DNA from: an uncultured Flavobacteriales bacterium
GTDB lineage: Bacteria; Bacteroidota; Bacteroidia; Flavobacteriales_G; Salibacteraceae
DNA length: 64,000 bases
Assembly (NCBI GenBank): GCA_905479105.1
Contig: CAJQLE010000002.1
Location: 310,001 to 374,000, forward strand
Direction of reading: 5' to 3'
Part shown: positions 48,612 to 62,407 of the stretch, piece by piece
Layout: each line of letters begins with the position of its first letter
How positions within the stretch are numbered: position 1 is the first letter of the stretch
The notes under the pieces: model-generated
The model's input: the letters and a program-made list of their open reading frames with translations, nothing else
Database searches by the model: none
Told to the model about the DNA's origin: nothing
Program-made: the position numbers and the translations under genes

Positions 48612-51542
48612 ATGAAAATTAAATCGCTCATTTTAGTGCTTGGCATTGCATCAATAGCCTTCACCTCATGCTCAAATTCAAGTCAAGAACCAGCAGCAGA
48701 AGCCTCAAAATACTCCTATGAGAGTGTAGAGAACGATCCGTTTGGATTGCGCATTTACACCTTAGATAATGGACTTAAAGTGTACATATCTGAGAACCAT
48801 GCCGAGCCGCGTATTCAAACGAACATTGCTGTGAGAACGGGAAGTAAGCAAGATCCAAAAGACGCTACTGGATTGGCTCATTATCTGGAGCACATGTTGT
48901 TTAAGGGAACATCTGACATAGGTTCTTTAAACTGGGATGAAGAAAAGAAACATCTTAAAATGATTTCTGATCTCTATGAAGAGCATAGAAATACAGAGGA
49001 TATGGATGCTCGAAAAACCATCTATGGCAAGATCGATAGCCTATCTCAAATCGCAGCCACTTTTGTTTCTACCAATGAGTATGACAAAATGATCAGCGGA
49101 TTGGGCGCACAGGGAACGAATGCATACACGAGTAACGAACGCACGGTTTACATCAACGATATTCCGAGCACTGAATTGGAAAAATGGTTAACCATTGAAT
49201 CCGAAAGATTCAGTGAATTAGTGCTACGCCTTTTTCACACAGAACTTGAAGCTGTTTATGAAGAGTTCAATCGCGGTCAAGACAGCGACCGTAGACAAGG
49301 ATATTATAAGTCATTAGAGCTGTTGTTTCCAAATCACCCTTATGGACAGCAAACTACAATTGGCACGAGCGATCATTTGAAGAGCCCGAGCATGGAGAAA
49401 ATTCATGATTATTTCAGCAGAAGATATGTGCCGAATAACATGGCCATCATATTGGCTGGAGATTTAGATCCTGACAAGACCATAGAAATGATTGACAATC
49501 ACTTTGGTGGTATGAAGTCTCAACCAATCGAAGAAATCGCAATGCCAACGGAGAAACCAATTTCCGAACCAGTTATTGCTGATGTGATGGGCAGTGAAGC
49601 AGAATTTGAAATGGTATCATTTCGTTTAGGAGGAATTCACACTAAAGATGCTATGTATGCTGAATTATTGGATGGGATTCTTAGTAATGGCAATGCCGGT
49701 TTAATTGACTTAAATCTCAATCAGAAACAAAAAGTTCTTCGTGCCTACGCCTCTGCTTCTGTAAATGAAGATTATTCATGGTTTATGCTTACTGGCTATG
49801 CCAGAAACGGCCAAAAATTGGAAGAAGTCCGAGAACTTCTATTGGCGCAATTGGACAGTGTGAAAAATGGAAATTTTGAAGATTGGATGATTGACGCTGT
49901 TGTTCGTTCTTTCAAAAAAGACTTAATGAGTCAAATGGAAGCCAACTGGATTAGAGCCTATATCATTTCTGACGCCTTCATTCTGAATGAAGATTGGAAA
50001 TCGGTTGTGAGCAAGTATGACGATATGGCCAAAGTCTCAAAGGATGAATTGATCGCTTGGACGAATGAGAATTTCACCAATAACTATGTGGCCATGAACA
50101 AGCGTATTGGAGAAAAGAATGTCTCTAAAGTAGACAAACCGCAAATCACTCCAATTGACATTAACCGCGAGGATAATTCAGACTTCTTTACCATGATCGA
50201 TACCATGGAATCAATGCGTTTAGAGCCTCAGTTTATTGACTTTGCATCTGCCATTCAAAAATCAACCATTGGTGGAAAAGTACCATTGCATTATGTGAAG
50301 AATGAGATGAATGAGCTTTTTACAATGAATTACTTACTTGACATGGGTAAGAACCATGACCAAAAAGTAGCATTGGCAGTTGACTATCTTCCTTACTTGG
50401 GAACAGATGAATTATCTCCTGCTGAGGTTCAAAAAGAATTGTTCAAGCTTGGAGTGAGCTTCGATGTTTACACCTCTGCCGACAAATCTTACATCACGCT
50501 TACCGGATTGGAAGAAACCTTTGAAGAAGGCGTTCAGCTTTTCGAAAAGATTTTAGCTTCTGTGGTTGCTGACGAAAACAGCTACAAGGAAATGGTTATG
50601 GGTGAGTTGAAAAAGCGCTCTGACAAGAAGTTAGACAAAGGTCAAATCCTATTCAGAGGAATGGCAGACTATGCCAAGTATGGGGCTGAAAATCCTTTCA
50701 ACGATTTGATCTCTGCAGATGAGCTGAAAGCAATTGACCCTAACGAATTAACCGACCTCTTGCATCAACTCACAAGCTTTGAACACCGCATTTTATATTA
50801 CGGTCCGCAAGACATTAATGCAGTAAGCACTGTGCTTGAGGCCAATCACAAGATGCCAGAAACATTGATGGCGTTGCCTGCTGAAAAGGAATACCCTGAA
50901 TTGGCAACAGACAAGAATGTTGTTTACTTCTGTGAGTATGACATGGTACAAACTGAGTTAATGATGTATCACCGCGGTGGAACTTTTGATGAAGGCATTC
51001 TACCTGAGTCCAAAATTTTCAATGAATATTTTGGTGGAGGACTTTCCTCCATTGTTTTCCAAGAAATTAGAGAATCTAAAGCATTGGCCTATTCAGCTTA
51101 TGCTGGTTATTCCATACCAAGTGAAGCGGATGATCATAATTATGTGCGCGGTTACATTGGAACTCAAGCCAACAAATTAGGTGATGCTACCAATGCATTG
51201 CTTGAATTGATGAGCAACATCCCACGTGCCGACAAGCAATTTGAAGGAGCGAAGTTGAGTGCGATGAAGCAAATTGAAACCAACAGAACAACAGGAAGCA
51301 GCATTCTGTGGAGCTATGAGCGCGCTCAAAAACTGGGTATTGATTATGATCTCAATCAAAAAATATATCCTCAATTGGAAGGAATGACTTTCGAAGCACT
51401 TCAGGCATTCTTTGATCAAAACATAAAAGGTAAAACATATACCTACGTTATGATTGGCAAGAAGAGTGAAACAGATTTTGAGGCGCTGAAAAAACTTGGC
51501 CCGGTAAAAGAACTTTCATTGAAAGAAGTATTCGGATACTAA
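48612..51542 (+). CDS. M16-family zinc metallopeptidase, lipoprotein
   Basis: The protein has 976 residues. A lipoprotein signal (LVLGIASIAFTSCSN) precedes a pitrilysin-type double M16 unit. The first half has the inverted zinc motif HYLEHMLFKGT (His-x-x-Glu-His) and the third ligand in AVYEEFNRGQD. The second half (about 530-976) has no HxxEH and is the structural partner, with YFGGGLSSIVFQEIRESKALAYSAYAGY as substrate-binding motif. It degrades peptides in the periplasm or at the outer membrane. It is cotranscribed with dnaX by position and ends at a terminator. Confidence 0.93.
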   Translation: MKIKSLILVLGIASIAFTSCSNSSQEPAAEASKYSYESVENDPFGLRIYTLDNGLKVYISENHAEPRIQTNIAVRTGSKQDPKDATGLAHYLEHMLFKGTSDIGSLNWDEEKKHLKMISDLYEEHRNTEDMDARKTIYGKIDSLSQIAATFVSTNEYDKMISGLGAQGTNAYTSNERTVYINDIPSTELEKWLTIESERFSELVLRLFHTELEAVYEEFNRGQDSDRRQGYYKSLELLFPNHPYGQQTTIGTSDHLKSPSMEKIHDYFSRRYVPNNMAIILAGDLDPDKTIEMIDNHFGGMKSQPIEEIAMPTEKPISEPVIADVMGSEAEFEMVSFRLGGIHTKDAMYAELLDGILSNGNAGLIDLNLNQKQKVLRAYASASVNEDYSWFMLTGYARNGQKLEEVRELLLAQLDSVKNGNFEDWMIDAVVRSFKKDLMSQMEANWIRAYIISDAFILNEDWKSVVSKYDDMAKVSKDELIAWTNENFTNNYVAMNKRIGEKNVSKVDKPQITPIDINREDNSDFFTMIDTMESMRLEPQFIDFASAIQKSTIGGKVPLHYVKNEMNELFTMNYLLDMGKNHDQKVALAVDYLPYLGTDELSPAEVQKELFKLGVSFDVYTSADKSYITLTGLEETFEEGVQLFEKILASVVADENSYKEMVMGELKKRSDKKLDKGQILFRGMADYAKYGAENPFNDLISADELKAIDPNELTDLLHQLTSFEHRILYYGPQDINAVSTVLEANHKMPETLMALPAEKEYPELATDKNVVYFCEYDMVQTELMMYHRGGTFDEGILPESKIFNEYFGGGLSSIVFQEIRESKALAYSAYAGYSIPSEADDHNYVRGYIGTQANKLGDATNALLELMSNIPRADKQFEGAKLSAMKQIETNRTTGSSILWSYERAQKLGIDYDLNQKIYPQLEGMTFEALQAFFDQNIKGKTYTYVMIGKKSETDFEALKKLGPVKELSLKEVFGY

Positions 51543-51585
51543 GCCAAATTTTATTGATGACCTAAATCATTAAAGCACATTTCAT

Positions 51586-51624
51586 AAAGGGGAGCAGAAG
51601 TCTAACTTGGCTCCTCTTTTTTTA
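51586..51624 (+). terminator. Rho-independent terminator after the M16 peptidase gene
   Basis: AAAGGGGAGC and GCTCCTCTTT form a stem of about ten pairs, including one G-T, around a 14-base loop, followed by T7. Confidence 0.8.
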
Positions 51625-51633
51625 GAACAATAA

Positions 51634-53877
<2,244 letters not shown>

Positions 53878-53900
53878 GCATCACGCTGAAAATGATTTGG

Positions 53901-53938
53901 AAAGTGCTTTTACATTCATTTGTAAAGGCACTTTTCTA
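53901..53938 (+). terminator. Terminator after icd
   Basis: AAAGTGC-TTTTACA and TGTAAAG-GCACTTTT form a stem of about 14 pairs with a TTCATT loop, followed by a short T-rich tail. Confidence 0.75.
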
Positions 53939-54101
53939 TTTTAGTAGAACGCTAATGAAAAAATGAGGAAATCAATTTACACTATTTTGGCTGCAATCAA
54001 CCTTTCAGAACATAATAAACATCTCTACAACTCAACAAAAATGGTTGGTTTAGGCTTTGACAACTAAAAAATATATTAGTGACTATCACTATTTACAATT
54101 G

Positions 54102-55146
54102 TTAGGCACAATAAAAAGAAACAAAAACGTTAGACAAGAATGACGAAAAGAAACTTTGTGATATTAATGGCTCTCGGGTTTACCTCTATGCTGATAATCC
54201 TTGAATCCTGTGAAAAGGATGATGATATTATTGACTCAGGCAGAACTGCACTTGACCATGCTTATGAATGTGAAGAAGTTTTGGGGCCACTGCCAAAATT
54301 CAGTTGTGCAGATGCCATAGAAGTACCTACAACAAAAAATGGAATCCCAGTAACTTTTCCATCGGGTGAAGAAGGTAATGGTAGCACAAATCCAAATGAC
54401 TGTGACCATCCATGGGCTTTTGGAATGGCTTGTCAAACAGGAAATAAGGTAGGTCGTTATCAAGGCTTAAACTCGGATGGTTCTGAAAACCCTGATGTCG
54501 TATTTATAACGTTTTGCCGTGATGGTGGATTAGGCGTTATTGGACATAAACTGTCGACAGGTGAAACTTGTTTTTTTTCAATCGTTGACGATGGTAACCC
54601 GAATAATTCTCCGAAACCAGGGGAGAATGGATACAATGAAGCATGGATGACTCCAAGCGTTGTAGCTGCTGATAAATGTCAAAATTGTCATATGGCAAGC
54701 CCGTTTTTGCATACACCAGCGGTTGACCAACTAAGAAATCCTGCAGACACATCAGAGTCACTTGTACCATTTACAGGAAACAATCCTTATTCAATTATCG
54801 GACAAGAATTTGATCAGCCACATACTACAAATATTCAGAACTCTTGTACATCTTGTCACCGACCTCAATGCACCCAACACTTTGAGAATTATCCTTTGGA
54901 TGAATTAACTATGCCACCACCATTTCAAAATGCAACTGATTTTGATCATAGTTCAATTTCGGATGCGGACAGACAAGCGATTAGAGATTGGTGTAATACT
55001 TTCAACCTTAAATAAATACTGTGCCTAACAATGGGTATAAAACATAGGGCGGACAGTGGTTTCCGCAAGTTTTCGGCACTTAGCAAGATTGGTTTCGGGC
55101 GGACAGAATTGTACTTCGAAATGCCCTACGTTTCATACCCGAGCCG
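54102..55146 (+). mobile_element. Integron-like gene cassette 1 (lipoprotein gene plus attC-like site)
   Basis: The left boundary is GTTAGGC (54101-54107, fits GTTRRRY). The 12 bases TTGTTAGGCACA (54099-54110) are the perfect reverse complement of TGTGCCTAACAA (55020-55031), which contains the R''-like box GCCTAAC of the hairpin at the right end. In integron cassettes the first six bases are by mechanism complementary to the cassette's own R'' box, as seen here. One ORF fills the segment, starting 38 bases from the boundary and ending just before the hairpin. No integrase is in the window. Confidence 0.65.
54140..55015 (+). CDS. Di-haem c-type cytochrome lipoprotein, cassette-borne
   Basis: The protein has 291 residues. 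The N-terminus has a hydrophobic segment and a probable lipidated Cys24 (LESCEKDDD). Two c-type haem motifs are seen, CQNCH (180-184) and CTSCH (236-240), with Met and His residues around them that could be distal ligands (HMASPFLHTP, HRPQCTQHFENYP, LTMPPPF). At least eight further Cys in the first half may form disulfides. The fold before residue 170 is not recognised. It would be anchored in the periplasm or at the surface and could pass electrons. It is the only ORF in cassette 1. Confidence 0.75.
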   Translation: MTKRNFVILMALGFTSMLIILESCEKDDDIIDSGRTALDHAYECEEVLGPLPKFSCADAIEVPTTKNGIPVTFPSGEEGNGSTNPNDCDHPWAFGMACQTGNKVGRYQGLNSDGSENPDVVFITFCRDGGLGVIGHKLSTGETCFFSIVDDGNPNNSPKPGENGYNEAWMTPSVVAADKCQNCHMASPFLHTPAVDQLRNPADTSESLVPFTGNNPYSIIGQEFDQPHTTNIQNSCTSCHRPQCTQHFENYPLDELTMPPPFQNATDFDHSSISDADRQAIRDWCNTFNLK

Positions 55147-55152
55147 TTGGCG
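55023..55152. repeat. attC-like site 1 (130 bp)
   Basis: The site starts with GCCTAAC (RYYYAAC, 55023-55029) and ends with GTTGGCG (55146-55152), a variant of GTTRRRY. Inside, GGGTATAAAACATAGGGC (55033-55050) and GCCCTACGTTTCATACCC (55123-55140) pair in 16 of 18 positions, with unequal spacers of 3 and 5 bases next to the outer boxes. GGGCGGACAG occurs twice as a direct repeat (55047, 55098). Length, nested arms and asymmetry fit an attC recombination site. Confidence 0.65.
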
Positions 55153-55535
55153 TGCATTTAAAATGAAAAAATTTCTGCTCATATTTCTAGTTGGGATTTC
55201 AATGGGATTTTCTGTTCACGGACAGAACTATCCTCTCTTTGGTAAGATTGAAATTTTTCCAGAAAACCCAAGTACCATAGACTCAGTTGAACTAAGAACA
55301 TGGATGGCAACTCCTAATCATGGCTGGTCGATTGATTTACCGAATTAATGAAGTTCAAATCTGGATATTGAAATGTCGTTTTCATTACGACTAAAAATAA
55401 TAAAAACGTTCGCCAACAACATCTCAAAAAAACAAACTGCGAGAACGTTCAAATAGACCATTTATCTTCCAAGCCAAATTTCTTATGGCTAAGACATTTA
55501 CGGTTTTAAAGCCGCACTAGCCATAGCCAGGAACG
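55147..55535 (+). mobile_element. Integron-like gene cassette 2 (small secreted ORF plus weak attC-like site)
   Basis: The segment begins TTGGCG at 55147 and contains the complementary box CGCCAAC at 55411-55417, as cassette logic demands. The next boundary, GTTAGCA (55535-55541), gives a site of 131 bases, almost the same length as attC-like site 1. The ORF begins 16 bases after the left boundary. The inner arms are weaker than in site 1, so this call is less certain. Confidence 0.5.
55163..55348 (+). CDS. Small secreted protein, probably truncated, cassette-borne
   Basis: The start at ATG 55163 gives 61 residues: a signal peptide (FLLIFLVGISMGFSVHGQ) and a 43-residue mature part with IEIFPENPSTIDSVELRTWMATPNHGWSIDLPN. 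A frame open further upstream only reads through the attC-like hairpin. The mature part looks like the first strands of a larger beta-rich exported protein, so this may be a truncated gene. Function unknown. Confidence 0.45.
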   Translation: MKKFLLIFLVGISMGFSVHGQNYPLFGKIEIFPENPSTIDSVELRTWMATPNHGWSIDLPN

Positions 55536-55541
55536 TTAGCA
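55411..55541. repeat. attC-like site 2 (131 bp, weaker)
   Basis: Boxes CGCCAAC (55411-55417) and GTTAGCA (55535-55541) bound the site. AACGTTCGCCAAC (55405-55417) and AACGTTAGCAAAC (55532-55544) are near-identical at both ends. An 8-bp perfect inverted pair TATGGCTA (55484-55491) and TAGCCATA (55518-55525) lies inside. No long stem next to the outer boxes is seen. Confidence 0.4.
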
Positions 55542-55564
55542 AACATTTAAAAAACTCTCCATGA

Positions 55565-56239
55565 ATGCAGTTTAACTTCAGAATCAGTGTTTTAACAGCC
55601 ATTGCTTTTTTGATCGTCCCTTGCTCCTTCGCTCAAGAGATGAGCAAATTTTTAAGCCTTGGAGACTCTTACACGTATGGAGAATCAGTGCCAAGTAATG
55701 AAAAGTTTCACGTTCAGCTTTATGAGGCCATCAATGATGATTACACATGGACCGAACCCACAGATATTGCACAAACGGGTTGGAGAACTGATGATCTTCT
55801 CAATGCCATTTCTGAAGCGAAACTTGATTACAACTATGATTTTGTAACACTGTTAATCGGTGTCAACAATCAGTATCAAGGCAGGCCATTTTCTCAGTAT
55901 GAAAAAGAGTTTATAACCTTATTGGATTCCTCCATTCTATTTGCCCAAAGCGACCCAAACCATGTATTCGTCTTAAGCATTCCTGATTATTACTTCACTC
56001 CTTTTGGCCAAGAGCAAAAAGGCGAATGGGTTTCAGAAGAAATTGATAGGTACAATGCTTATGCAAAAAGTGTTTGTGACTCTCTCCACGTATCATTCAT
56101 TGATATCACACCGATTTCGCGCAGAGGCATTGAAGAACCTGAGTTAATCGCAAATGACGGCTTGCACCCTTCTGGGGTTCAGTATAAACTTTGGGTAGAA
56201 AAGCTGTTGATGGAAATGGAAAGTCAACAACTGCGCTAA
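55565..56239 (+). CDS. Secreted SGNH/GDSL hydrolase
   Basis: The protein has 224 residues with a signal peptide ending at CSFAQ. The GDSL block is FLSLGDSYTYGESV with nucleophile Ser35; the Asn block is LLIGVNNQYQG, and the C-terminal Asp-His pair is in NDGLHPSGVQY. It is an extracytoplasmic esterase or lipase-like enzyme with unknown substrate. The start lies 29 bases after the right boundary of cassette 2, so it could be the cargo of a third, decayed cassette; no box complementary to TTAGCA was found downstream of it. Confidence 0.88.
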   Translation: MQFNFRISVLTAIAFLIVPCSFAQEMSKFLSLGDSYTYGESVPSNEKFHVQLYEAINDDYTWTEPTDIAQTGWRTDDLLNAISEAKLDYNYDFVTLLIGVNNQYQGRPFSQYEKEFITLLDSSILFAQSDPNHVFVLSIPDYYFTPFGQEQKGEWVSEEIDRYNAYAKSVCDSLHVSFIDITPISRRGIEEPELIANDGLHPSGVQYKLWVEKLLMEMESQQLR

Positions 56240-56297
56240 TACGCTTCCAAAATAATTTAATAACCGTAGCTTTCGGCCCGTTTGAAAGGAGAATACT

Positions 56298-58142
56298 ATG
56301 CAAGAAAACACAATGCTCGATTACGTCAAAAAAGTTTTAGAAAACATGCCAATTGGTTGGTTGAACCTAACAACCCATCGCTTAGATATTTACGATGAAA
56401 GTTTGGCTAAAACTCAATTCCTAGAGCAGTTCGAAAACCTTTTCAACGCCAACAATGCATCGGCATCAGTACTTAATGAATTACCCACTGCGTATGATTA
56501 CATTCGGTTGGGTCATCCTCTATCTTGCGTTCTGGAATGGGCAATTGCTCGGCTGCATAATTTAACGCCAGAAAATGTAATCAGCTTTTCGTCTGCAACT
56601 ATGCCTTTGTTGGCTATTCTGAGAACTAACTTATTGTCAAATAAAGATACTCGCATCGTTTATACCGATGCCCTGCCCCACTCTTTTGATGAAGCTTTGC
56701 TAAAAGAAGTATATGGGTATAAATTTGAGTTAGAAAAGGTTCAGCACGCACATGATCTTTCTACTTTTAACGGAAGCACGGTTTTCTTTTCAGAAGAAGC
56801 TATCGTTGGCAAAACTGATTTAATTGAGAACGTTGACTTTTTCGTTCATACACACGTTGACCTAGGTAGCCTGCTTCTTATCGCAGGCAAAAACAACAAC
56901 AGCTACGTCTCGGCAATTCAGCATGTAAGAAGAAGAGAAACGATCGCAATGACTCCGGCCAATTGTCTTCCTGCGTTAAAATCTCTTGTTGAACGATCTG
57001 CTATAGTCACTCCAAAAAGTAATCTAGCCGCAGATAAGACATCGGTTATCAATTCAATCAAAACCATTACAGGTTCTAGTACAAAGGCTTTAGTAGGTTC
57101 CAGTGGACTTTCTGTGCAGTATGCCATAATGATGGGACTGATTAATGATGCACAAGAAAATCATCAAAGAAAAGCCATCAAGTTTATTGTTCCACCGAAT
57201 TGCTATGGTGGAACGAATGATCAGGCAAGACGCGTTGTTGCCAGCGTTGCCAATGTGGAGGTGATAGATCTGCCAGTAGATGGCCACAACGATATGGTTC
57301 AAAGCGTTGAAAGCATCTTAGCCAAAATCGCTCTAGAAGATGCTGTGCCCTATATCATTGCTGAAGTCCCAACCAACCCTAGGGTTGAAGTTCCAGATCT
57401 GAAAAAACTAAGAGATGCATTGAGTAAAGAGCGGAAAACTGCAAAAGGTGAAACCGCTATCGATCCCGTTTTTATTCTAGATCAAACATTTTGTCCAAAC
57501 GTTCTTTTCTTAGGTGATGGTGAAATTCTCTCAACAGTAAGAACCATCTCTTATGTTAGTGGATCGAAATTTCCGAGTGGCGGAAAATGCACTGCTGGAT
57601 ATTGTGTAGGAAACAGAAAAACAGATGCATTGATGAACAGTATAGAAAAACACCTTATCCTCTGCGATAACGAAGCAACCAAACTTCAATATGAGCTATT
57701 AGCCAAGCAACTGCCATCTATGGTTCAACGCATTGCCGATGCCTATAAGAATACACGCGCGTTTGTCAACTTCATAAAGGATAAATTACCTACAGCCAAA
57801 ATCAACTTCGTTTCAGAAGAGCTGGCGCAACAAGGATTCACCCCTTCCGTATTTTCACTAGATCTTCCAACGAAAGGAAACAGTGATGAAGAAAGAGAAA
57901 CTTATAAAAGAGCATTGAATTTGAAACTGATAGATTTAATGATCACAGAAATTCCTGAAGAAAGCAAATATTGCGTGAGCTACGGGCAATTAAAAGGATG
58001 CTATTGGACTATACCAGCAACGTCTACTCAAGGCACAACCAAAGAAGGCGATAAAGATTACATCGCCCGTGTTGCACTCTCTGCGAATATGGATCTCGAG
58101 CGTCACAAACAGGTGTTTCAAGATTTCGTAAGATCAATATAA
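56298..58142 (+). CDS. PLP-dependent Cys/Met-metabolism-family enzyme with long N-terminal extension
   Basis: The protein has 614 residues, about 200 more than usual cystathionine gamma-synthase or lyase. The C-terminal part shows the family fold: ALVGSSGLSVQYAIMMGLI, IKFIVPPNCYGGTNDQARR, YIIAEVPTNPRVEVPDLKKL, DPVFILDQTFCPNV and the PLP lysine in SYVSGSKFPSGGKCTAGYCVG. Residues 1-230 have no motif I know but include a decayed-looking second alpha/beta unit. Large members of this family exist in fungi as cystathionine gamma-synthase. A GGAG-type sequence (AAAGGAGAA) lies 9 bases before the ATG, unusual for this genome. Confidence 0.8.
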   Translation: MQENTMLDYVKKVLENMPIGWLNLTTHRLDIYDESLAKTQFLEQFENLFNANNASASVLNELPTAYDYIRLGHPLSCVLEWAIARLHNLTPENVISFSSATMPLLAILRTNLLSNKDTRIVYTDALPHSFDEALLKEVYGYKFELEKVQHAHDLSTFNGSTVFFSEEAIVGKTDLIENVDFFVHTHVDLGSLLLIAGKNNNSYVSAIQHVRRRETIAMTPANCLPALKSLVERSAIVTPKSNLAADKTSVINSIKTITGSSTKALVGSSGLSVQYAIMMGLINDAQENHQRKAIKFIVPPNCYGGTNDQARRVVASVANVEVIDLPVDGHNDMVQSVESILAKIALEDAVPYIIAEVPTNPRVEVPDLKKLRDALSKERKTAKGETAIDPVFILDQTFCPNVLFLGDGEILSTVRTISYVSGSKFPSGGKCTAGYCVGNRKTDALMNSIEKHLILCDNEATKLQYELLAKQLPSMVQRIADAYKNTRAFVNFIKDKLPTAKINFVSEELAQQGFTPSVFSLDLPTKGNSDEERETYKRALNLKLIDLMITEIPEESKYCVSYGQLKGCYWTIPATSTQGTTKEGDKDYIARVALSANMDLERHKQVFQDFVRSI

Positions 58143-58164
58143 CCCTGCTTATCATTTTAGCTAA

Positions 58165-58319
58165 AAGAATAAAGCAGAATTCAACGAACTTGGTTTAGGA
58201 ACAAAAACGCCTTCTAGCGGCTACCGCTTGTTGAATAAAGACGGATCGCTCAACGTAAAAAAGGCGAACATCGCTTTTTTTCAATCGAGCAGGGAACATT
58301 ATTTTAAACTTTTTAGATG
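58165..58319 (+). pseudogene. Inward-rectifier K+ channel (Kir) fragment
   Basis: The frame opening after a stop at 58162 reads FNELGLGTKTPSSGYRLLNKDGSLNVKKANIAFFQSS and so on (checked in blocks of up to 20 residues). ELGLGTK followed by RLLNKDGSLNVKK is the characteristic N-terminal segment of prokaryotic Kir channels before the slide helix. It has no start codon and stops at 58317-58319, before any transmembrane helix. It is a broken remnant, joined in another frame to an aminotransferase fragment. Confidence 0.6.
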
Positions 58320-58606
58320 ATCAAGGGAATGTCATTCCTTTTCAAAGCATTGAAGAAAAGGCAAACGAAATGATGATTTCAATTCGTTCGGGTTATTTTT
58401 GCAATCCAGGTATTGATGAGATCAATAATCACATCACCGATTCTGAAATGAGCGGCTATTTCTCAAGTGAAAAGAGCGTTGACTACTATGACATGGTTAC
58501 ACATCTAGGGAAAATGCGCGGAGCGATTAGGGTTTCTGTCGGAATCGGAACAAATACGAAAGATTTAGATCGCTTTATTCAATTTGCCAAAGCAGTGGAA
58601 ATCTAA
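58286..58606 (+). pseudogene. Class V aminotransferase C-terminal fragment
   Basis: The frame reads AGNIILNFLDDQGNVIPFQ, IEEKANEMMISIRSGYFCNP, GIDEINN and, near the end, MRGAIRVSVGIGTNTKDLDR FIQFAKAVEI. This matches the C-terminal domain of cysteine-desulfurase-like class V aminotransferases, where ISLRTGCFCNPG is the conserved Cys loop. The PLP-binding domain is missing. An internal ATG at 58370 gives a 78-residue ORF that should not be taken for a gene. The 5' part overlaps the Kir fragment in a different frame, showing a junction of two remnants. Confidence 0.65.
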
Positions 58607-58706
58607 CTTAACCTTTCCAAAGACAAAAACCAAGTTCAAACCTAGCTCGTAGTAGCAGTTTCGAGCAGGTCAAATAACTAAATCGCAATTAAATTGTTAT
58701 ACGTTC

Positions 58707-59297
58707 ATGAAAACAATCATCATCATATTAAGTGCTGCAGCACTCATCTTTTTCATAGCTCAAGCCTTTATTATGCAATCAACTCAAAAAACGGAAAAAC
58801 ACAAGTATTCTGTGCTCAAAGATTTCGGTTCATTTGAAATTAGAAAGTATGAACCTGCCTTATTTTCCTACGTTGTTATGCAGGCTGATTCTTACAAATC
58901 AGTTTCTAGTAAAGGATTTGGCAAGCTGGCAGGATACATTTTTGGAGGAAACGAAAAAGATCAGAAAATTGCCATGACCACACCGGTCGCAATGTCCATG
59001 GACGACTCTGTAACAATGAAGTTCAAAATTCCCGAAGGCATGACGTTGGATGAGATGCCCAAGCCAACTAATTCTGAAGTTCGGTTTCAATCAGAACCAG
59101 AGAAAATTGTGGCTACCATTCGATTTGATGGCTGGTCATCAGATGAAAGCATTGAAAAAAATACACAGAAATTACTCCAGCTATTGGCGGAAAACAACAT
59201 AGATCACAACGGAAACATTAGCTATTTGGGTTATAATCCTCCTTTTGAATTAATAAATAGAAGGAATGAGATTATTGTTGAGGTCACTTATCCATAG
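58707..59297 (+). CDS. SOUL haem-binding family protein
   Basis: The protein has 196 residues with an N-terminal hydrophobic anchor or signal peptide (IIIILSAAALIFFIAQAFIM). The SOUL domain shows YSVLKDFGSFEIRKYEP, SSKGFGKLAGYIFGGNEKDQKIAMTTPVAM and the C-terminal YLGYNPPFELINRRNEIIVEV. SOUL proteins bind haem in eukaryotes; bacterial roles are unclear. It is probably membrane-anchored and exposed to the periplasm. The 100 bases upstream contain no recognised site. Confidence 0.9.
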   Translation: MKTIIIILSAAALIFFIAQAFIMQSTQKTEKHKYSVLKDFGSFEIRKYEPALFSYVVMQADSYKSVSSKGFGKLAGYIFGGNEKDQKIAMTTPVAMSMDDSVTMKFKIPEGMTLDEMPKPTNSEVRFQSEPEKIVATIRFDGWSSDESIEKNTQKLLQLLAENNIDHNGNISYLGYNPPFELINRRNEIIVEVTYP

Positions 59298-59362
59298 GGG
59301 TTAAATTACATTTGAAGGCTAGCCAAAACTCCTTTAAGTTTACAGCCTTACGTTATCATATT

Positions 59363-59740
59363 ATGCGCTCAATACAATTTATTCTAGCCTTTATTATTTC
59401 ATCTTTTACCTTAGGAAGTTGCATCCAACGGTCTTCGCTTCCTGATCCTCTTCAAGCAGGTTGGAATGGAGCGTCTGTGTGTCAAGTGATAGAGGATAAT
59501 GAGGAGTTAAGAGTATTGAAGTGCACTTTCCCTCCGGGCGTAGGGCATGAAAGGCACTACCACAGTGCTCATTTTGGGTACACTTTAGCCGGGAGCACAT
59601 TTCGCATCAAAGACACTACTGGAATTAGAGAGGTTCAAGTTCCTACGGGCAGTAATTTTCAAAACGAACGCATTGAATGGCATGAAGTGCTAAACATTGG
59701 AAAAGACACTGCCGTATTTCTAATCATAGAACCTAAATAA
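59363..59740 (+). CDS. Cupin-domain lipoprotein
   Basis: The ATG at 59363 gives a lipoprotein signal (ILAFIISSFTLGSCIQR); an in-frame start at 59312 would only add a non-signal leader. The 125-residue protein has a single cupin barrel with GHERHYHSAHFGYTLAGS (metal ligands His, His and probably His/Glu) and a second motif near EWHEVLNIGKDTAVFLIIEPK. It is probably anchored in the periplasm; metal and substrate are unknown. Confidence 0.8.
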   Translation: MRSIQFILAFIISSFTLGSCIQRSSLPDPLQAGWNGASVCQVIEDNEELRVLKCTFPPGVGHERHYHSAHFGYTLAGSTFRIKDTTGIREVQVPTGSNFQNERIEWHEVLNIGKDTAVFLIIEPK

Positions 59741-59760
59741 AAATTAAATAATTTTGGGAC

Positions 59761-60044
59761 GCGCGATACCAAGCGAGAGAGTTTGCGTTTGGGGAAAAAC
59801 CAAATCAGTATTTCAAAAAACAGATCTCCGATCTTAAGCCAAGAAAGCTTTTAATACCTGCTGAGGGTGAAGGAAGAATTGCAATTTATGCAGTCACTTT
59901 AGGGTGGGACGCTTCTGTTTTTGACATGAGTTTTAAAGGAAAAATGACAGCAGAACAATTGGCGTCTGAAAACAATGTAAAAATTTATTGTAAAATTGAG
60001 GAATTGGCGATGAAGAAGTACCTGCAATCCGAGAATGGATGAAG
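59761..60044 (+). pseudogene. SAM-dependent methyltransferase remnant
   Basis: One frame from about 59761 to the stop at 60042-60044 reads DARYQAREFAFGEKPNQYFK, then KPRKLLIPAEGEGRIAIYAVTLGW, DASVFDMSFKGKMTAEQLA (blocks shown separately), which is the N-terminal half of a TehB-like class I methyltransferase with SAM motif LIPAEGEGR. There is no start codon and the C-terminal half is lost. After a shift at about 60000, another frame continues with GDEEVPAIREWMKYSTELN to a stop near 60158; that part is not recognised. The rest of 59741-60235 holds no intact gene; TAATTTTG at 60196-60203 may be the -7 element of the following gene. Confidence 0.6.
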
Positions 60045-60235
60045 TATTCAACAGAACTTAATATGATTTGCATTGAACGAAATCCAATGTCAGAAAAAAC
60101 TAGGATTCAGTTTCAAAACTTCACACATCTATCCAATAATTTTTCATTATATGTATAAAAGCATCTGTTCTCGAGAGCCAAGATGCAAATAGCCTTAATT
60201 TTGAAAGAAATCATCCTAGAGGTTAGATTGACCGT

Positions 60236-60991
60236 ATGAAAAATCCAGATCCTTTAGAATTATTGAAAAATCTTAAAAGCAAGAATAATTCGAAGAGTCA
60301 ACAAAACACTTTTTCGATTCTTCTTTTTTTAAAGAGGTCACTCATGTTTTTAGGCCTTGTCTTCGGCACTATGCTTTCGCTAGCATTCACAGACATTCCA
60401 TTCTATGCCTATGCCGATTTAGGAACGGTAGAATCAAATTATAGCGAATCTCCTGAAGTGATCATCCTCCTAGGAGGCGAAGGCATGCCAAGCGCAGACG
60501 GGTTAATGCGCTGCTATACTGCGACAGAAAAAGCATTATATTATCCCAAAACAAAAATCATCATTGCCCTCCCTGAAAATAAATTGTCTGATGAACCTTT
60601 GCTAGCTTCAGAACTTATGGCAAACGAACTGACCATACGGGGAATTGAAAAATCACGAATTTCATTTGAAACCCAAGGTACCAACACCCATGAACAAGCC
60701 GAATTAATCTTCAAAAAAACAGAAAGCGCAGCACGCTTATTGATTATCACCTCTCCCGAGCACATGACTAGAGCGGCTGCATGTTTCATAGAGGAAGGAT
60801 TTAAGTCAGTTGGTTGCTCACCAACTTTTGAACACGACCTTTCAGCTGAAAGTCTTTTAGAGAAAAATGGTGAATCATATACTCCAAGTCTGGCTTTGCG
60901 CTACAATATTTGGAGTTACTTACAATATGAAATTCGAGTAGGTAGAGAGTATGTTGCTCTCGCATATTACAAGTTGAGAGGTTGGATTTAA
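60236..60991 (+). CDS. YdcF/ElyC/SanA-family (DUF218) protein
   Basis: The protein has 251 residues. One transmembrane segment (SLMFLGLVFGTMLSLAFTDI, about 35-57) anchors it. The DUF218 domain shows PEVIILLGGEGMPSADG, ALYYPKTKIIIALPENK, RISFETQGTNTHEQAELIF and LLIITSPEHMTRAAACFIEEGF. Relatives act in envelope biogenesis (ElyC, SanA in E. coli), with an unknown enzymatic activity. It is a single gene in front of a convergent aldehyde dehydrogenase. Confidence 0.87.
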   Translation: MKNPDPLELLKNLKSKNNSKSQQNTFSILLFLKRSLMFLGLVFGTMLSLAFTDIPFYAYADLGTVESNYSESPEVIILLGGEGMPSADGLMRCYTATEKALYYPKTKIIIALPENKLSDEPLLASELMANELTIRGIEKSRISFETQGTNTHEQAELIFKKTESAARLLIITSPEHMTRAAACFIEEGFKSVGCSPTFEHDLSAESLLEKNGESYTPSLALRYNIWSYLQYEIRVGREYVALAYYKLRGWI

Positions 60992-61015
60992 ATCAACTCT
61001 TCAGCACCTCTAGTG

Positions 61016-62407
61016 CTAGAAATACTTCATCAAAAATCGCATGATTTTTTGCTTTGAATTGGTGTATGGAGGAGCCAAAAACTCAATACTGCTGAATATT
61101 CTTTGATCCAAAATTGCCCGTTGATTAGAAAATTCTAAGAAACCAAAGTGACCCCTAGACTTGCCAATCCCACTATTATTAACGCCTCCAAACGGCAGAT
61201 TAGAGTTGCCAATATGTAATGCGGAAATATTGATACCTACTCCACCTGAAGCGGTATTCTTTAAAAAGTAATCAATATTTTTTCTGCTTTTTGAATATAC
61301 ATATAGCGCTAAAGGCTTTTCTTTAGATTCAATGAAATCAATGACTTCTTCTTTTTTGCGGTAGGTAATAAGTGGAAGAATAGGTCCAAATATTTCGTTT
61401 TGCATCATCTGCCCGTCCATAGAAACCTGATCGATCAAAGTTGGGCTTATTACTTTTTCGTCTTGCTTCGTGACACCACCATACAGAATGACAGCTCCAT
61501 TAGTGACGGCTTCGTCTAAATAATTCGACAACCGATTAAAGTGCTTTTCATTTATAATGTGAGCATAGCTCTGCGAATCTTCTGGATGCTTGCCGTAATT
61601 TTTCTCAATCTGATCAGACATTTTTCTCACAAAAGCTTCTTTTTGCGACTCATGAATAAGAATGTAGTCTGGTGCGATACACGTTTGTCCGGCATTGATA
61701 AACTTGGCCCATACAATTCTTGGAACTACAGCATCTAAATTGGCAGTTTCGTCAATTATGGTAGGAGACTTCCCTCCCAATTCCAAAGTAACACTGCTTA
61801 AGTTTTTGGCTGCGGCCGTCATCACCACTTTACCAATCTCAGGGGCGCCAGTAAAGAAAATATGATCAAAGTTGAATTGGAGAAGCTCAGTAGAAACATC
61901 TACATCACCCTCAACCATAACCGCTTCATCTGCTTCAAAGCAATCAGCAATTATGCGATTCACAACTACCGAAGTATGTGGAGTATATTCTGACGGCTTC
62001 AAAATGGCCGTGCATCCGGCAGCTATTGCTGAAACCAAAGGCGCGAGCAAAAGTTGAAACGGATAATTCCACGGTGATATTATCAATGAAGTTCCCTTGG
62101 CGTCATACTTAATCTTGGAAGTAGCACCGAGTAAGGTTATAGGAGTTGGAACATGATCATCTTTCATCCATTCCGAAAGATTTTTGACAGCAAATCGAAT
62201 CTCCAATAAAACAGGATAAATCTCCGTAAAATCGACTTCTGTAGCTGGTTTTTGAAAATCCTTCCACATCCCTTCGCAAATAGCATCGCGGTGTTGGAGA
62301 ATAGAACGTTCTAACCTTTTTAACTTTGCCTTGCGCTCCTTAGACGAACTGCCAGCAATTAGTCTTGTTTTCGATTGTTGACTTTTAAAAATCTGTTCTA
62401 AATCCAT
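61016..62407 (-). CDS. Aldehyde dehydrogenase, ALDH3-like
   Basis: The protein has 463 residues, the shorter class 3 size. Catalytic Glu is in VTLELGGKSPTI and catalytic Cys in AGQTCIAPDYILI; ISPWNYPFQLLLAPLVSAIAAG and FGPILPLITYR are also typical. The C-terminal PPYTNSKQKIMRFLMKYF is basic and hydrophobic, as in membrane-associated fatty aldehyde dehydrogenases. It oxidises medium- or long-chain aldehydes with NAD(P). The acyl-CoA synthetase at 31684 could use its product, but the genes are not linked. Confidence 0.92.
   Translation of the reverse strand: MDLEQIFKSQQSKTRLIAGSSSKERKAKLKRLERSILQHRDAICEGMWKDFQKPATEVDFTEIYPVLLEIRFAVKNLSEWMKDDHVPTPITLLGATSKIKYDAKGTSLIISPWNYPFQLLLAPLVSAIAAGCTAILKPSEYTPHTSVVVNRIIADCFEADEAVMVEGDVDVSTELLQFNFDHIFFTGAPEIGKVVMTAAAKNLSSVTLELGGKSPTIIDETANLDAVVPRIVWAKFINAGQTCIAPDYILIHESQKEAFVRKMSDQIEKNYGKHPEDSQSYAHIINEKHFNRLSNYLDEAVTNGAVILYGGVTKQDEKVISPTLIDQVSMDGQMMQNEIFGPILPLITYRKKEEVIDFIESKEKPLALYVYSKSRKNIDYFLKNTASGGVGINISALHIGNSNLPFGGVNNSGIGKSRGHFGFLEFSNQRAILDQRIFSSIEFLAPPYTNSKQKIMRFLMKYF

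Follow-up and report, generated by a model that had tools for sequence, protein, structure and literature searches.

Integrons and Their Integrases

The integrase of canonical integrons, IntI, carries an additional domain that has served as a criterion for recognizing integron integrases (PMC2426708). This domain is called necessary for activity in the title of a 2001 paper by Messier and Roy, cited in both PMC2426708 and PMC4792948. In a published scenario, integrons descend from a Xer-like ancestor through gain of the I2 domain (PMC4792948). Integron surveys report few integrons in Bacteroidota (PMC9024848); with IntegronFinder 2.0, one complete integron is listed in Bacteroidetes proper, in Salinibacter, plus an earlier In0. 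The taxon-specific attC models do not include Bacteroidota.

The window described here is a 64,000-nucleotide stretch of genomic DNA from an uncultured Flavobacteriales bacterium. Positions 55147–55535 are very probably a gene cassette of an integron-like system with a non-IntI tyrosine recombinase and an attI-like site, of which the window copy would be a remnant. An initial annotation, made from the letters of the window, had proposed such a cassette, and this reading is borne out by the covariation of cassette ends, by the presence of the neighboring cassette elsewhere with identical ends, and by a linked recombinase with its attI-like site. The features of the locus are as follows:

53975–54064, plus strand: putative decayed 3′ end of a recombinase gene; its terminal TAA opens the attI copy
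54065–54101, plus strand: attI copy, identical to the site after the recombinase on contig C3, with the predicted crossover point between G54101 and T54102
54102–55146, plus strand: cassette 1, left end TTAGGC, R″ GCCTAAC; the same gene and ends occur on another contig in genome G011
54140–55015, plus strand: gene of cassette 1, a 291-aa lipoprotein-like protein with two CxxCH motifs and no confident family
55023–55152, plus strand: site 1, the attC of cassette 1, intact, hairpin on the bottom strand; fold z −2.69, covariance-model score 114 bits with site 1 itself in the training set
55147–55535, plus strand: cassette 2, left end TTGGCG, R″ CGCCAAC, ends matching at 7/7 positions; its site was located independently by covariance model R1
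55163–55348, plus strand: putative gene remnant of cassette 2, a truncated 61-aa ORF with a signal peptide-like start
55411–55541, plus strand: site 2, the candidate attC of cassette 2, with R″ at 55411–55417 and R′ at 55535–55541; outer arm intact, inner arm apparently decayed

Matching of Cassette Ends

In the mechanism proposed here, the linked tyrosine recombinase would act on the bottom strand of attC folded as a hairpin, cutting between G and TT, and the excised cassette circles would be joined into the attI-like site that lies directly after the recombinase's own gene. Within such a circle, the left end (TTxxxx) and the cassette's own R″ box would form one site; the two should therefore agree with each other in any one cassette and differ from one cassette to the next. 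In the window, the recombinase would have decayed to its last ~90 bp while the attI copy and cassette 1 stayed intact, and cassette 2 would be left with a truncated gene and a degenerate attC.

End matches between neighboring sites are expected if cassettes are excised and inserted at G|TT. Sites were located with a simple finder whose score comes solely from the hairpin arms that lie between AAC and GTT. An initial set of 19 loci gave 27 neighboring site pairs, of which 10 match exactly, and the summed matches (58) exceed the permuted value of 33.4 ± 4.8, with 0 of 10,000 permutations as high. Covariation in related arrays, which the initial annotation had proposed as a check, is present: in a larger set, the left end agrees exactly with the cassette's own R″ box in 31 of 50 neighboring pairs (permuted mean 2.2, maximum 9 in 10,000). 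The boxes within one site show no such matching.

Core sequences are alike across species, as they would be if the hairpins were a dispersed repeat family or a regulatory element instead of recombination sites. This reading is extremely unlikely, given that the ends covary with the neighboring site and not within the site, that a gene has relocated with exact ends, and that the window contains no more than one strong hairpin of this sort. The attC sites are of short (49–76) and long (117–124) types, with R″ and R′ boxes and variable length. The bottom strand folds better in 65 of the 71 sites of known orientation, a count toward which the wobble bonus of the finder leans.

The Second Cassette and Its Site

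The initial annotation placed TTGGCG at 55147, CGCCAAC at 55411–55417, and GTT 124 bases farther on at 55535, and these positions are exact to the base. Its site lengths also agree with the sequence: site 1 (55023–55152) spans 130 nt and site 2 (55411–55541) spans 131 nt, with GTT at 55146 and 55535. The inner arms of site 2, described as weak, are so, since the bottom-strand DNA fold has a z of −1.08 and 31 of 200 shuffles fold as well. A stable bottom-strand hairpin had been expected as well; this expectation fails for site 2 and holds for site 1, whose fold is equaled by 2 of 200 shuffles.

Covariance model R1 was built from 36 long attC-like sites of relatives, with the variable box bases omitted; site 2 was excluded from the training set and site 1 was included. 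In the window, R1 matches sites 1 and 2 only. The match to site 2 runs end to end on the minus strand (24.4 bits, E 0.0017, where R1 E-values are rough and the site finder and R1 were built partly on the same sites), and its ends, 55415 and 55537, are exactly the AAC and GTT of the proposed site. Positions 55510–55537 agree at 25 of 28 bases with the arm of an attC that lies elsewhere in the genome, on contig C3; the next-best place in the window agrees at 19 of 28. The R″ match (CGCCAAC, with AAC 117–124 nt upstream of GTT) stands at the family's usual distance, an arrangement found at 4 of the 2184 GTTs in the window, sites 1 and 2 included. An Rfam search of 50000–62000 gave no match.

If cassette 1 were genuine and 55411–55541 a chance resemblance, the array would end in unrelated intergenic sequence; the lack of a stable hairpin at site 2 and the shortness of the ORF agree with this, and an 8-bp inverted repeat gives another reading at 55473–55541. 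Such a coincidence is nonetheless very unlikely in view of an independent covariance-model match with exact ends, the arm shared with contig C3, and the spacing of the R″ box. The shorter reading of site 2 at 55473–55541 was itself rejected because its fold is no better than that of shuffles, and the full-length covariance-model match is preferred.

The model match, the arm match, and the box spacing, taken with the decayed pairing arm and the 61-aa ORF, thus argue that site 2 is a genuine but degenerate attC closing a broken cassette. As site 2 forms no stable bottom-strand hairpin, cassette 2 would be a cassette in decay whose gene is truncated. The 61-aa ORF has one weak relative, in genome G010 (E 9e-5).

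Relocation of the First Cassette

Among 60 genomes, the gene of cassette 1 occurs only in the genome of the window (G000) and in G011, which belongs to the same genus; DNA homologous to site 1 is present in 22 of 149 relatives. In G011, cassette 1 lies on another contig (87% nucleotide identity) with the same left end TTAGGCACAATA, the same TGTGCCTAACAA, and a different short attC stem, a 17-bp hairpin that forms on the bottom strand only. This genome has the cassette without a close homologue of the recombinase. Its orthologous IDH and GDSL genes flank a different piece, and window 54100–55541 is absent there; an integrase remnant was sought at this IDH–GDSL locus and not found. In other genomes of the genus, the GDSL gene is not kept next to IDH where the synteny is readable, so the empty-site evidence comes from G011 only.

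Comparison of L057 (7606–7665) with window 55023–55152 reveals one cassette gene and one R″ box with two unrelated attC stems in two species, a stem swap that cassette exchange alone does not explain. The IDH–GDSL gap of G011 (L056, 5951–6418) is occupied by another cassette-like piece, which includes a fragment of a SIR2-like gene (MKSISLIIGSGFSVPDG...); the presence of such a piece at the orthologous spot suggests an insertion hotspot.

The attI Copy and Putative Recombinase Remnant

Positions 54065–54104 of the window are identical to the site directly after the 405-aa recombinase on the other contig, C3. The attI sequence has exactly two copies in the genome, one on C3 and one in the window (reversed-pattern control, 0). 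Immediately upstream, 53975–54064 aligns with the final 90 bp of the recombinase gene on C3 with a global alignment score of 15 (z 4.4), a score reached by 0 of 3456 background segments of the window. The same 90 bp give no signal against the recombinase genes of G003 and G010, and the evidence that they are a decayed recombinase gene end is therefore moderate. With the attI copy before cassette 1 and recombinase-like sequence before the attI copy, the window looks like the stump of a second integron: a remnant consisting of a decayed recombinase end, an attI copy, an intact cassette 1, and a decayed cassette 2.

The Complete Copy on Contig C3

What is, as read from its sequence, a complete copy of the system is found on contig C3 of the same genome (G000:C3). 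The 405-aa tyrosine recombinase encoded there is the best TIGR02249 match in the genome. Directly 3′ of its gene lies TAAAAAATATATTAGTGACTATCACTATTTACAATTG, whose first three bases are the stop codon, followed by TTATGC. The first cassette carries an esterase gene and a short attC with R″ GCATAAC; a paralogous esterase gene and further genes follow. In G010, the recombinase is 56% identical and the attI-like site is nearly the same. The complete integron of L106 (4631–8811) contains two esterase paralogues, T9SS-sorted proteins, and a Fic-domain protein.

Type of Recombinase

The cassette-linked recombinases are without the ~42-residue insertion of IntI, which corresponds to the IntI-specific additional domain (the patch and the I2 helix). 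Between the KGxKDR and LRHS motifs, the Bacteroidota recombinases have 59–61 residues (65 in one), compared with about 102 in canonical IntI, and the alignment with the IntI structure 2a3v skips about 43 residues over the same stretch. In a tree of 86 sequences, with its rooting and the placement of XerC/D left unsettled, the insertion-bearing IntI set and the cassette-linked set are split by a branch with 100/100 support.

The C3 recombinase scores 223.6 bits with TIGR02249 and four Bacteroidota recombinases score 207–228 bits, all below the cut-off of 265. The NF040815 (XerA) score of the C3 recombinase, 233.5 bits, is over the cut-off of 220. An AlphaFold model of this recombinase (mean pLDDT 78, with low confidence near the catalytic Tyr and in the linker) best matches archaeal Xer (4a8e, Z 23.2, rmsd 8.3, 254 aligned) and 5hxy (Z 20.0), with IntI 2a3v below them (Z 18.4, rmsd 4.8, 255 aligned). 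Separate XerC- and XerD-like genes are present in the same genome. Judged by these comparisons, the system is one that would work like an integron, but with an integrase that is not IntI. Residues 1–110 of the recombinase (L106, 8904–10121, minus strand) are conserved, have weak similarity to DUF5710, fall outside the IntI alignment, and are barely probed by the fold comparison of the entire protein.

Distribution and Gene Order in Bacteroidota

The order recombinase, attI-like site, and attC cassettes, all on one strand, is common to ~20 Bacteroidota loci on chromosomes and plasmids. Around recombinase homologues, each of the 11 G-numbered loci with sites has its attC-like sites downstream of the recombinase and on the same strand, as do 12 Bacteroidota loci from the named scan; the genera of the latter include Winogradskyella, Seonamhaeicola, Rufibacter, Flavobacterium, Algibacter, and Aquiflexum. 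The G-numbered and named sets overlap slightly, since L148 and L158 are one contig. As a control, the same finder placed the attC sites of four canonical IntI loci (e.g., Pseudoalteromonas, Paraglaciecola) on the opposite strand, upstream of the integrase. Totals for the named scan are 46 downstream on the same strand (two of them from Acidobacteria loci with IntI-type recombinases and one from a divergent Bacteroidota MAG), 3 upstream on the same strand, 1 downstream on the opposite strand, and 10 upstream on the opposite strand. The left end of the first cassette after the recombinase stop codon equals the box of the first attC in 7 of 11 G-numbered and 8 of 12 named loci; that the match is not seen in every locus is probably due to missed sites.

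R1 has matches in 119 of the 149 relatives. For many recombinase homologues, no attC was detected nearby, and the contig often, though not always, ends there; draft genomes often end at arrays. A Chryseobacterium plasmid has the same arrangement with three successive exact end matches. Plasmid-borne versions are the following:

L240, 8974–14776: Chryseobacterium sp. SNU WT5 plasmid, recombinase followed downstream by several attC sites
L241: Rufibacter tibetensis plasmid, recombinase followed downstream by several attC sites

The attC sites have the classical RYYYAAC/GTTRRRY layout, and CALINs served in trans have been described (PMC9668308), so the cassettes might be ordinary integron cassettes moved by a canonical IntI from elsewhere, with the linked Xer-like recombinase a bystander. 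We consider this unlikely. No TIGR02249 match over the cut-off is found in the window's own genome or in 149 relatives, whereas two canonical IntI from the named scan score 441 and 458 bits; moreover, the recombinase gene abuts the attI-like site and the first cassette in many lineages, in constant order and strand.

Phage records contain no close homologue of the recombinase, and 47 Acinetobacter plasmid records match it. In the Acinetobacter baylyi plasmid NZ_CP104735 (L243, 2967–4988), the “xerD” gene, known to precede tet(X3), is a fragment with homology to these recombinases (44.6% identity in the catalytic part). Between this fragment and tet(X3) there is a cassette-start-like GTTATGTGCC, and an attC-arm-like AACAAGCAGTTTTGCAATAGTGGGGC lies after tet(X3); the boxes differ. 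As a lead only, tet(X3) may have left Bacteroidota as the first cassette of such an integron.

Comparison with Known Systems

A description of this Bacteroidota system was not found in open-access papers; because open-access papers only were covered, an earlier description elsewhere is possible. With canonical integrons the system shares the attC layout, the cassette ends, an adjacent attI-like site, the bottom-strand bias, and gene arrays running in one direction. An attI beside the integrase, as expected of IntI-type systems, is seen in the sequence as a conserved site after the stop codon, followed by the first cassette. In contrast to canonical integrons, the Bacteroidota recombinase is without the ~42-aa IntI insertion, groups outside the clade of IntI, reads toward attI, and carries an additional N-terminal region of ~110 aa. 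Transcription of the integrase toward attI, in the direction of the cassettes, is shared with integrons of the Treponema denticola type, which are reported as intI integrons (PMC3607928).

The window locus resembles a CALIN in having two attC sites with no integrase gene nearby, the best integrase candidate being on C3. It differs from a CALIN in keeping an attI copy and a putative recombinase remnant, with a complete copy elsewhere in the genome. XerA is known from dif-type sites. Compared with XerA (NF040815, “site-specific tyrosine recombinase/integron integrase”), the Bacteroidota recombinase has the extra N-terminal region and is linked to cassettes.

There is probably a second, widespread lineage of integrons in Bacteroidota, in which a Xer-like integrase would handle folded single-stranded attC without the IntI-specific domain, either as an independent origin or as a survivor from before the domain was gained. 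The scenario of a Xer-like ancestor would become testable with a Xer-like recombinase that lacks I2 and is found beside attI and attC cassettes across many Bacteroidota. If this reading is true, integron surveys have missed a large gene-capture system of Bacteroidota, its plasmid-borne versions included.
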